NCBI RefSeq assembly: GCF_008933165.1
Contig: NZ_WBVQ01000001.1
Location: 1,178,001 to 1,242,000 of the forward strand
DNA: 64,000 nt
Direction of reading: 5' to 3'
Origin: Phaeocystidibacter marisrubri
Lineage (GTDB): Bacteria; Bacteroidota; Bacteroidia; Flavobacteriales; Schleiferiaceae
Shown here: positions 12,564 to 33,581 of the stretch, in pieces
Layout: each line of letters begins with the position of its first letter
Position numbering within the stretch: the first letter of the stretch is position 1
The notes under the pieces: model-generated
What the model saw: only the letters and a program-made list of their open reading frames with translations
What the model was told of the DNA's origin: nothing
The model's database searches: none
Program-made: the position numbers and the translations under genes

Positions 12564-13205
12564 TTGAAATCACTAGACACCACCGCGGTAACTCAAATTT
12601 TCCCACAGTTTACCGACCAAAACCTACTTAAAGAACTCAGTGAAAACGGCTACATCCAACGATACCACTCCGGTGATTATATCATGGATAAAGGAATGCC
12701 TGTAGAGTTCGTTCCGCTATTAATATCAGGCTCCATGCGCATTATGCGTAGAGACGACGAAGACCGTGAGTTGCTCTTGTATTATTTGAGAGCCGGCGAA
12801 ACCTGTGCTAGCAGTCTAACGTGTTGCATGGACAAATCCATCAGTGAAGTTGAAGCTGTGGCTGAAGAAGACACAGAGGTGCTCGCTATCCCTTCTAACT
12901 TGGTAGATGTGTGGATGGAGAAATACCCTCAATGGAAGGCCTACGTGATGCAGACCTACCACGATCGATTTCAAGAATTGATGGAAACGATAGACGCGAT
13001 TGCTTTTCATCAATTGGATGAGAGAATGTTGAGGTATTTCAATGAGCGCATTGAGAATCAAAATGGAGATCGTGTGATTAAGGCTTCCCATCAAGAGATT
13101 GCCACAGATTTACACTCCAGTAGAGAGGTGATTAGCCGATTGCTGAAACAGATGGAGAAGGAAGGAATGGTAGCGCTAGGCCGCAACCGGGTTGAAGTGC
13201 TCTAA
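12564..13205 (+). CDS. Crp/Fnr-family regulator with a CX5CC motif
   Basis: A 213-residue regulator. The cyclic-nucleotide-binding-like beta-roll spans about 20-120 and the Crp-type winged helix about 165-213, with the recognition helix in HSSREVISRLLKQMEKEG. The frame starts with TTG; no in-frame ATG lies just upstream, and the next one is inside the beta-roll. The protein has only three cysteines, all in GETCASSLTCCM (81, 87, 88), placed where many Crp proteins bind their effector. With a persulfide dioxygenase-like gene downstream, a thiol-based sulfur sensor is a fair inference. A 25-bp repeat array starts six bases after its stop codon. Confidence 0.88.
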   Translation: MKSLDTTAVTQIFPQFTDQNLLKELSENGYIQRYHSGDYIMDKGMPVEFVPLLISGSMRIMRRDDEDRELLLYYLRAGETCASSLTCCMDKSISEVEAVAEEDTEVLAIPSNLVDVWMEKYPQWKAYVMQTYHDRFQELMETIDAIAFHQLDERMLRYFNERIENQNGDRVIKASHQEIATDLHSSREVISRLLKQMEKEGMVALGRNRVEVL

Positions 13206-13210
13206 GGCCT

Positions 13211-13575
13211 CTGCGAAGCCCATGCCATCAGCAACCTGCGAAGCCCTTGCCACCAGCAAACTGCGAAGCCCTTGCCATCAGCAACCTGCGAAGCCCTTGC
13301 CACCGGCAACCTGCGAAGCCCTTGCCACCGGCAACCTGCGAAGCCCTTGCCACCAGCAACCTGCGAAGCCCTTGCCACCAGCAACCTGCGTAGCCCTTGC
13401 CACCAGCAACCTGCGAAGCCCTTGCCACCGGCAACCTGCGAAGCCCTTGCCACCGGCAACCTGCGAAGCCCTTGCCACCAGCAACCTGCGAAGCCCTTGC
13501 CACCAGCAACCTGCGTAGCCCTTGCCATCAGCAACCTGCGAAGCCCTTGCCACCGGCAACCTGCGAAGCCCCCAT
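13211..13575 (+). repeat. 25-bp tandem repeat array, 15 copies
   Basis: CTGCG(A/T)AGCCC recurs at exact 25-base steps from 13211 to 13561: 14 full units and one partial. Units vary at few positions: CACCGG, CACCAG or CATCAG in the middle, and GAAG or GTAG near the start. CCGG units contain the small hairpin TTGCC-ACC-GGCAA. Units 4-8 (13286-13410) and 9-13 (13411-13535) are the same five variants in the same order, differing at one base, so a 125-bp block was duplicated. All six frames are open because of the composition and period. This is not evidence of coding. There are no spacers, so it is not CRISPR. Confidence 0.95.
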
Positions 13576-13621
13576 CCAACCAACTGTGACTCCCATCACC
13601 TTTCCCCCATTTTCAACTTCG

Positions 13622-13629
13622 CATCTTTG
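13622..13629 (+). promoter_or_regulatory. Possible -7 box for the MBL-rhodanese gene
   Basis: CATCTTTG differs from TAnnTTTG at the first position and lies 53 bases before the ATG at 13683, just after the repeat array. It would give the gene its own promoter independent of the regulator gene. Confidence 0.3.
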
Positions 13630-13682: not shown

Positions 13683-15095
13683 ATGAACGTAGAACAGATA
13701 TATACCAATTGTCTTGCTGAAGCGGCGTACTACATTACGTCCAATGGTGAAGCAGCTGTCATTGATCCACTGCGCGAATCTGAACCTTATCTCGAGCGTC
13801 TGGAGAGGGATGGTGTGAAATTGAAATACATTTTTGAGACCCACTACCATGCTGATTTCGTTTCAGGTCACTTAGATCTTGCTAAGAAAACCGGCGCAAC
13901 CATTGTATATGGCCCTAATGCAAATCCTGTATTTGAAGCGCATGAAGCAGTGGATAATGAGGAGTTCACTATTGGCGACGTGAGAATTCGAGTACTTCAC
14001 ACTCCGGGACACACACAAGAATCTTCCACTTTTCTTCTCATTGATGAAAACGACGAGGAACGCGCCATTTTCACTGGAGACACCTTGTTCTTGGGGGATG
14101 TTGGTCGACCAGACCTCGCCATCAAAACCGATTTGACTCAAGAGGATCTTGCAGGAATGCTCTTCGATTCTCTTCGCAATAAGATCATGACACTTCCCGA
14201 TAGCATTACGGTTTACCCTGGACATGGTGCGGGATCTAGCTGTGGAAAGAACTTGAGTTCTGATACGGTAGATATATTGGGAAATCAAAAGCGAACCAAC
14301 TATGCCCTTCGCGAGAGTATGACCAAGGAAGAGTTCATCAAAGAAGTAACCGAAGGTCTTGCCCCTCCTCCACAGTATTTCCCAGAAAATGCCAAAATGA
14401 ACAAGTTTGGCTACGATTCTGTGGATGAAGTAATGGAAAGAGGAATGAAAGCCCTTACCCCTGCAGAGGTAGCATCAGAAATCGAAGCTGGAGCCTTGGT
14501 GCTCGACACCCGTTCAGCGGATGCCTTTGCAGCTTCACACATCCCGAACTCGATGTTCATTGGCATTGATGGCAACTTCGCCATGTGGGTCGGAGCATTG
14601 ATCACCAACCTCAAGCGCCGCATTGTCTTCTTGGCACCAGAAGGTCGCGAAGAAGAAGTGGTACGTCGACTTGCACGTGTGGGATACGACCATGCGGTGG
14701 GATACCTCAAAGGCGGGATGGAAGCTTGGACAGCGGCTGGCAAAGAAGATGCTAGCACAAAGTCTATTTCTGCCGTCACCTTTGAAGAGCGTTATGCAAA
14801 GGGTGAAACCAATGTTGTGGATGTTCGCAAAGAGGGAGAATACAACCGTCGACATATAGAAGGTGCACAATTGTGGCCATTAGACGACATTCTTCGTGAA
14901 ATGGGAACTCTTGACAGAGAAAAACAAATGTTTGTACACTGTGCAGGTGGTTACCGATCTATGATTGCAATGAGCATGTTAGAAGCGGAAGGTTACACCA
15001 ACCTGACCAATGTTGAAGGTGGATTCAAAGCAATTGAAGCGCTCAACCATGTTCCGTTGACAGATGAAGTTACGTGCGCAAGCACTGCACAATAG
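13683..15095 (+). CDS. MBL-fold hydrolase with two rhodanese domains (persulfide dioxygenase-like)
   Basis: A 470-residue fusion. The metallo-beta-lactamase domain (1-245) has THYHADFVSGH, HTPGHTQESS, FTGDTLFLGDVGRPDL and YPGHGAGSSCGK, the pattern of ETHE1-like persulfide dioxygenases. Two rhodanese domains follow. The first (about 255-360) has no Cys in its active loop region (IVFLAPEGREEEV), so it looks inactive. The second (about 370-460) keeps the catalytic loop CAGGYRS with Cys420. Known relatives oxidise persulfides to sulfite or thiosulfate in sulfide detoxification. The Crp-type regulator upstream fits that role. Confidence 0.9.
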   Translation: MNVEQIYTNCLAEAAYYITSNGEAAVIDPLRESEPYLERLERDGVKLKYIFETHYHADFVSGHLDLAKKTGATIVYGPNANPVFEAHEAVDNEEFTIGDVRIRVLHTPGHTQESSTFLLIDENDEERAIFTGDTLFLGDVGRPDLAIKTDLTQEDLAGMLFDSLRNKIMTLPDSITVYPGHGAGSSCGKNLSSDTVDILGNQKRTNYALRESMTKEEFIKEVTEGLAPPPQYFPENAKMNKFGYDSVDEVMERGMKALTPAEVASEIEAGALVLDTRSADAFAASHIPNSMFIGIDGNFAMWVGALITNLKRRIVFLAPEGREEEVVRRLARVGYDHAVGYLKGGMEAWTAAGKEDASTKSISAVTFEERYAKGETNVVDVRKEGEYNRRHIEGAQLWPLDDILREMGTLDREKQMFVHCAGGYRSMIAMSMLEAEGYTNLTNVEGGFKAIEALNHVPLTDEVTCASTAQ

Positions 15096-33014: not shown

Positions 33015-33022
33015 CAAAGATA
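33015..33022 (-). promoter_or_regulatory. Promoter -7 box of ffh
   Basis: TATCTTTG on the minus strand, 26 bases before the ATG of ffh at 32988. No -33 TTG is clear at the expected distance. Confidence 0.45.
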
Positions 33023-33069
33023 AATACTAGAGGTGAGAGATGAGAGATGAGCCGTGCTGAATTGTAATT

Positions 33070-33195
33070 AGGGATGAGGGATGAGGGATAAGGGATCAGA
33101 GATCAAGGGTAAGGGATCAGAGATCAAGGATCAGGGATCAAGGATAAGGGATCAGAGATCAAGGATAAGGGATCTGAGATCAAGGATAAGGGATG
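33070..33195 (+). repeat. 7-bp tandem repeat array, 18 units
   Basis: Eighteen contiguous heptamers of the form AGGGAT(C/G/A), with variants AGAGATC and AAGGATA. Most follow a three-unit order (AGGGATC, AGAGATC, AAGGATA), so the array also has a 21-base period. The plus strand is almost all purine and A/T. Looser copies precede it from about 33031. It lies between ffh and argS. Confidence 0.9.
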
Positions 33196-33377
33196 ACACA
33201 CTTAAGTGAACACTCCTGAACACTTCCTTGTAAACATTTGAAAGAAGTGTTTTGACTTATTCAAGCTGAAGATTAGAAAAATCCAAACATCAGCTCGGTC
33301 TTAGTAGAAATTATCAGAACCTCACCGCTTAGAAAAAAGCACTAAACCTCTCTATTGAAACATGTAGACTCAGCTCC

Positions 33378-33575
33378 TTAATTGAATCTTCTCGTCAAAA
33401 AGAACAAATCATTGGTTCTTATGCTAGCATCCCGAGCAACATCAGCGAAGGAGCTGAGCGTGAATCCAATACATCCTTCCTTATCTTCCTTACCTATTCA
33501 TCAAGTTCGTGCGCAGAACTACACACTCAACTCACTTTCATCTCAAAGATCCATCCAGAACTCTCACTTCCCACT
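33378..33575 (+). pseudogene. Remnant of a four-helix-bundle (S23-like) protein gene
   Basis: In one plus-strand frame the sequence reads EQIIGSYASIPSNISEGAER, then SFLIFLTYSSSSCAELHTQL. This matches the core of the small four-helix-bundle family (often called S23 ribosomal or rRNA-IVP-like proteins), where SIPSNIAEG is the best conserved part. No start codon, N-terminal helix or clean end is found, and the frame is open only from 33333 to 33617. It is a decayed gene, perhaps a former mobile or IVS-linked unit. The rest of the 593-base gap has only the heptamer array and the ffh promoter. Confidence 0.6.
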
Positions 33576-33581
33576 CCCATC

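Follow-up and report, generated by a model that had tools for sequence, protein, structure and literature searches.

The 25-bp tandem array lying between a Crp/Fnr-type regulator gene and an MBL-rhodanese gene of Phaeocystidibacter marisrubri would, with chances that we place slightly above even, be a solo array without a gene, belonging to a non-coding satellite family that is dispersed through the genome. The arrays of this family are of the same type as those that flank a TIGR02436 four-helix-bundle gene in inverted orientation. In the sets examined, and in statistical terms, the combination of a TIGR02436 gene with inverted brackets of short repeats appears to be an element that recurs. 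Short intergenic tandem arrays are usually dismissed as slippage noise. If many of them were tied to TIGR02436, a widespread orphan gene family, two puzzles would meet, namely the role of these genes and the short intergenic repeat families of unrelated bacteria. The window considered here is the whole stretch of 64,000 nucleotides that was analysed, from the genome designated G000; G001 and G002 are two species of the same genus.

Organization of the array

The array occupies positions 13211–13571 of the + strand, with a period of 25, 14.4 copies and 94% matches according to TRF. It consists of 14 full units of 25 bp followed by an 11-base partial unit (13561–13571); the end at 13575 given by an earlier sequence-only reading takes in this partial unit and 4 flanking bases. 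The array itself is real, as that reading had held. Scanning of the window with the consensus, with at most 3 mismatches allowed, recovered 14 units, every one inside 13211–13560; 100 shuffled versions of the window yielded 0. Each 25-bp unit is the succession of an 11-nt monomer, CTGCGNAGCCC, and of a 14-nt monomer, TTGCCACCRGCAAC. The units follow one another head to tail without unique spacers, so that the array does not have the organization of a CRISPR.

The proposed duplication of a 125-bp block is confirmed by self-comparison. Five units at 13286–13410 (+ strand) recur at 13411–13535 (+ strand), the sole difference between the copies being C at 13403 and T at 13528, and the array matches itself at 97.3% at lag 125 vs 94.8% at lag 25. 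The TTGCC/GGCAA stems that had been pointed out in the CCGG units can indeed form. Reading frames are open on both strands and show no sign of coding. This openness follows from composition, as had been suggested, and a period of 25 is not divisible by 3; a coding repeat was rejected on both grounds.

A dispersed family of mini-hairpin arrays

One way proposed to interpret the array was to look for its unit elsewhere in the genome, in order to tell a dispersed family from a local minisatellite. The family is dispersed within G000, and a purely local minisatellite was rejected. Nine arrays were recognized, from A (the window array) to I, of which A–E were found by blastn and F–I by a core pattern, sampling, the monomer pattern and reading; two further short matches to the monomer pattern are located at C1:766400 and C1:888505. 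Unit lengths are 25, 25, 24, 25 and 23 in arrays A–E; F mixes lengths of about 12 and 24, G has units of about 46 as judged by reading, and the consensus units are unlike from array to array. The smallest parts of the arrays are monomers of 11–14 nt, written YT-stem-loop-stem'-CC and arranged head to tail. Two such monomers make up the 25-bp unit, the 125-bp block contains five of these dimers, and array B strings together over 40 mini-hairpin monomers head to tail. Between the nine arrays, exact 11-mers are shared in one orientation and none in the other. Only H and I form an inverted pair, the window array being single.

Related arrays adjoin unrelated genes. Arrays A, D, G and H start a few bases from a stop codon, and two ORFs (L046 5376–5738 and L047 6399–6788) end, with GLRR and a stop, inside arrays B and C. 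In G000, the monomer-pair pattern was counted 71 times and its reversed control 18 times, the corresponding counts being 28 vs 22 in G001 and 24 vs 27 in G002; among these three genomes, the monomer family is therefore particular to G000. Array G, at a spoT-type gene, and array E, before a presumed asnS, are absent at the matching positions of G001 and G002. Using blastn, the window array matched 0 of 39 other genomes, and neither plasmids nor phages yielded a match. Its exact two-core pattern was found in 6 records of genome_contigs, a count from which records of the same or a near genome were possibly left out, and in 0 of viral_contigs; one of the six, L030, is a 24-bp array of other sequence.

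The nine arrays contain 172 monomers, of which 77 are distinct. Both stem pairs are possible in 69 of these 77; when the right halves of the monomers were permuted 20,000 times, the mean was 51.2 and the highest count 62. The last piece of each array is omitted from this test and a few pieces are recut by fixed rules. The left arm is not GC in 19 distinct monomers, among which 12 pair (AC/GT, GT/AC, GA/TC, GG/CC) and 7 do not. The G000 family thus has the complementary stems of a mini-hairpin satellite, with the reservation that the monomers are related by descent, and thus not independent, and that correction of imperfect palindromes at the time of replication could mimic stem covariation. 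Many monomers have GNA or GNNA loops; GCGAAGC with such loops is described as a DNA mini-hairpin of unusual stability (PMC4686876). Single-unit DNA folds of the window array were no better than those of shuffled sequences (z -0.78, -0.39, -0.08), and the same holds for RNA folding of the entire array, with z +0.31 for the + strand and +3.59 for the - strand. The latter result does not bear out the suggestion that the array shapes an mRNA end. Since the window array gains no support from standard folding, the case for hairpins is carried by the family-wide covariation. Rfam gave 0 matches at gathering score in 11 loci.

A genome-wide excess of hairpins was considered and rejected. To this end, chains of stems of 4 or more were counted. 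Their number in sampled stretches is only somewhat above that in shuffled sequences (22 vs 16.0 in G000, 28 vs 18.4 in G001, 24 vs 17.4 in G002 and 33 vs 19.8 in G005). In four orthologous loci of G001, 7 chains were counted vs 0.8 after shuffling, five of the 7 in L146, and in four orthologous loci of G002 1 vs 0.6. Among hairpins with 3-nt loops, GNA/TNC loops account for 9/69 in G000, 3/28 in G002 and 7/81 in G005, which is about the shuffle level, and for 15/56 in G001, where the shuffled value is 1/37.

Inverted brackets at TIGR02436 genes

Arrays H and I face each other, in inverted orientation, across about 500 bases that contain a TIGR02436 four-helix-bundle gene. At the same place in G001, between genes resembling, by eye, S9 and M16 peptidases, a TIGR02436 gene (43% identity) is bracketed by inverted hairpin strings of other sequence. 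The hairpins of these brackets are separated by CTT, as in ACTCAC GCA GTGAGT ctt ACTAGC TCT GCTAGT ctt. Neither the gene nor the hairpin strings are present at that place in G002. A covariance model of the G001 strings gave matches under E 0.01 only in its source loci, L083 and L146, the best E values being 0.12 in G000 (array G), 0.06 in G002 and 0.11 in G005. Hairpin strings with unlike stems were also noticed in G001 at L086 14976–15067 and L083 19554–19975. The spacers of the G001 strings are AAGG or AAGGA in L086 and in part of L083, and CTT in another part of L083.

A profile search of seven genomes identified 17 TIGR02436 genes in six of them. For each gene, a bracket score was obtained by aligning the 300 bases upstream with the 300 downstream, the latter taken as reverse complement. 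This score is at least 28 for 10 of the 17 genes, L147 being included though cut by a contig end, vs 4 of 960 control ORFs, which were taken from G000, G001 and G002 only; the genes of these three genomes reach it in 8 cases out of 10. The remaining 7 of the 17 scored below 28. As judged by eye and with TRF, the bracket repeats are mostly of 7–14 bases and unlike from gene to gene. As a side observation, L151 (G000) and L153 (G010) have TIGR02436 genes at the same place in what are presumed, by eye, to be CoA-transferase subunit genes, with repeats that differ.

Similar brackets occur on plasmids. Using tblastn with one TIGR02436 protein, 14 plasmid records were retrieved and 10 loci examined; the four records left out were three of Riemerella with the same match statistics and one with a partial match of 39%. 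The homologues, whose family assignment is by tblastn and annotation, are mostly annotated as four helix bundle or S23 ribosomal protein, one being unannotated. Bracket scores of 42–63 were obtained at 9 of the 10 loci, from three phyla: Nostoc (3), Calothrix brevissima (2, near-identical and carried by two plasmids of one strain), Pseudanabaena, Geminocystis, Riemerella and Gemmatirosa. The tenth, on a plasmid of Calothrix sp. PCC 7716, scored 19. In a cyanobacterial control of 99 kb from two plasmids, 1 of 73 ORFs reached at least 42, and this ORF is the four-helix-bundle gene itself. Three of the plasmid genes are found between or beside partners, namely two ribonucleotide reductase genes, cas6 and cas4, and sufB; the locus between cas6 and cas4 (L168, Pseudanabaena galeata plasmid) carries long GCTAAAA-type arrays. 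Among solved structures, 2gsc is a relative by sequence (E 4.4e-11).

The window also contains a TIGR02436 gene fragment at 33333–33551 (+ strand; profile positions 3–78 of 109), with an AGGGATC-type array upstream, at 33070–33194 (+ strand, TRF). This AGGGATC-type array and the fragment (33019–33580) are missing at the matching site of G001 (L076). The bracket score of the fragment is 20, a value reached by 237 of the 960 controls.

No report linking TIGR02436 genes with short tandem repeats was found in the literature searched, to which most subscription journals did not belong, and this silence is weak evidence that the link is new. A paper on Flavobacterium columnare lists a TIGR02436-type gene, with no remark on repeats in the passages concerned (PMC5524665).

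Relationship of the window array to the brackets

The window array has the same monomers as a bracket array of the same genome. In terms of exact 11-mers, A has 4 in common with H and 5 with I, and B has 8 in common with each, in one orientation only. A profile built from the 21–28-base units of A–E was run against sequence from four genomes totalling about 1.7 Mb, in which the loci of B, D and E were not included, and against an equal amount of shuffled sequence. Matches at E<=1 were found only in arrays A, C, F and I of G000, with E 0.0099 for I; the profile did not reach array G, and blastn with the window array as query found neither H nor I at E<=0.001. The likeness between window array and bracket arrays is one of short, repetitive shared words. 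No TIGR02436 gene or remnant was detected at E<=0.05 beside the window array, which is why it is termed solo, nor beside arrays B–G. The features of bracket arrays that it does not display are an adjoining TIGR02436 gene and a paired, inverted orientation. From the shared words and monomers, we infer that the window array may be linked to the TIGR02436 brackets. A parallel is seen in G001, where 5 of 20 sampled stretches contain tandem pairs of GAGGGTTR, which are also present beside the TIGR02436 gene of L152; no such pairs were found in 20 stretches each of G000, G002 and G005.

Several steps may be envisaged for the formation of the window array. It would have been seeded just past the crp stop codon, as a gene-less relative of one bracket, either by descent from TIGR02436 elements or by spreading with them. 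Local lengthening, probably by slippage or unequal recombination, would then have produced the 25-bp dimers, and the observed duplication of the 125-bp block would have come later. As a guess, the TIGR02436 protein might bind or move arrays able to form hairpins.

A broader proposal may be put forward, to which we give tentative credit, well short of even chances. TIGR02436 genes would be small mobile elements, so far undescribed, bounded by inverted short-repeat arrays and distributed over several phyla. The protein would act on the hairpin-forming repeats, and the dispersed intergenic arrays of these bacteria, including that of the window and perhaps cyanobacterial STRRs, would be solo arrays that this system has left or spread. 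This proposal predicts that TIGR02436 genes are flanked by mirror-image arrays of short repeats, and that solo arrays located elsewhere have the same unit as these flanking arrays.

A simpler account, somewhat unlikely in our opinion and the first to be weighed, would be that of an ordinary minisatellite family growing by slippage, seeded by chance after gene ends, with H and I also flanking the TIGR02436 gene by chance. Consensus units specific to each array and the duplication of 125 bp are typical of slippage or unequal exchange, and the solo arrays have no TIGR02436 remnants, all of which fits this account. It is at odds, however, with the recurrence of inverted brackets at TIGR02436 genes, both in the seven-genome set and on plasmids, and with the presence in G001 of hairpin strings at the same two positions. 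Stem covariation would also not be expected from plain slippage, though palindrome correction by template switching could mimic it.

The crp and MBL-rhodanese genes

The gene upstream of the array (12564–13205, + strand) encodes a Crp/Fnr-family regulator (Pfam HTH_Crp_2, cNMP_binding). Its stop codon, at 13203–13205, is followed by 5 bases (13206–13210) and then by the array. The downstream gene (13683–15095, + strand) encodes a protein with an MBL fold and a rhodanese domain (Pfam Lactamase_B, Rhodanese). Between array and downstream gene, a Crp-type palindrome, GTGACTCCCATCAC (GTGA-N6-TCAC), is located at 13586–13599 (+ strand); it is outside the array, beginning 14 bases past its end, and may be the operator of the Crp/Fnr-type regulator. 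The box CATCTTTG at 13622–13629 (+ strand), upstream of the MBL-rhodanese gene, is promoter-like by sequence comparison, its function being putative. A GTGA-N6-TCAC word was likewise observed upstream in L037 and L039.

The layout of a regulator followed by its likely target, as recognized in the sequence-only reading, is upheld by the occurrence of palindrome and box in G001 and G002 as well. There, the intergenic stretch is of about 70 bases, contains no array, and the GTGA-N6-TCAC palindrome overlaps the stop codon of the regulator gene. The distance between palindrome and box is 22 nt in G000 and G001 and 21 in G002. Since this arrangement is kept at nearly the same spacing without the array, the array is dispensable for the crp-MBL layout. 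Its absence from G001 and G002 further indicates that it was inserted between stop codon and palindrome, or lost twice.

These observations bear on the possibility that the array is a regulatory or mRNA-end element of the gene pair, such as a protein-binding array, an attenuator or a terminator. Its location, starting 5 bases past the crp stop codon and ending 14 bases before the palindrome, would suit such a role. The arrangement kept in G001 and G002, the unrelated genes adjoined by related arrays and the RNA folding, no better than that of shuffles, all argue against it, and make this role quite improbable. Thus, the window array probably does not regulate its neighbours.

Comparison with known systems

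Very little weight can be given to the idea of a MITE with an internal minisatellite, of the BrickBuilt kind, or of a REP/RAYT element. Dispersed intergenic arrays of 23–25 bp do resemble BrickBuilt (PMC4596501), and Y1 tyrosine transposases (PF01797) have 3 matches in G001 and 1 in G002. However, G000 has 0 such matches, and no common leader, tail or terminal repeat was found in the 300-bp flanks of the nine arrays. These flanks have in common only words of 12–17 bases (E 0.18); the one long match is the common spacer of H and I, and the cut points of F and G are some tens of bases off. In G001, a Y1 transposase gene (G001:C1:16766–17110) is flanked on either side by tandem repeats of 206–207 bp with GGGCTTTAGCCC hairpins (L072 15989–17890). 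As for an assembly artefact, arrays of this sort can be collapsed or expanded when assembled from short reads, but the unlike units succeed one another in a fixed order, and five further arrays of the family, each with units and flanks of its own, were assembled separately, so that this explanation is hardly credible.

In the S23 elements, or intervening sequences of 23S rRNA, a gene is bounded by inverted repeats. The protein family is the same by name, TIGR02436 being called 'four helix bundle protein' and some plasmid homologues 'S23 ribosomal protein'. In contrast to these elements, the genes considered here lie between protein genes, and their inverted boundaries consist of short tandem repeats in arrays. 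STRRs are heptamer repeats of cyanobacteria, and heptamer arrays, among them AGGGAGT and ACAGGGA, are present at cyanobacterial four-helix-bundle loci. That these are STRRs, and that STRRs are linked to TIGR02436 genes, we infer; the unit of the window array is of 25 bp, whereas that of STRRs is of 7.

REP/RAYT elements are similar in being short extragenic palindromes, often downstream of genes and often with inverted neighbours (PMC3733652). REPs are palindromes of 20–40 bp (PMC3733652), whereas the G000 arrays are made of 11–14-nt mini-hairpins placed head to tail, and a REP/RAYT system would need a transposase, for which G000 has no Y1 match. BrickBuilt, in Porphyromonas gingivalis, corresponds to intergenic, dispersed and species-restricted tandem repeats of 23 nt, with 19 elements in one strain (PMC4596501). 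Most BrickBuilt arrays have a leader and/or a tail, with inverted ends, none of which is common to the arrays described here, and the abstract and section 5 of PMC4596501 mention neither a string of hairpin monomers nor a four-helix-bundle gene. The likeness resides in intergenic, dispersed and species-restricted arrays with variants specific to each element (PMC4596501), and BrickBuilt is the nearest described bacterial array family that was found.
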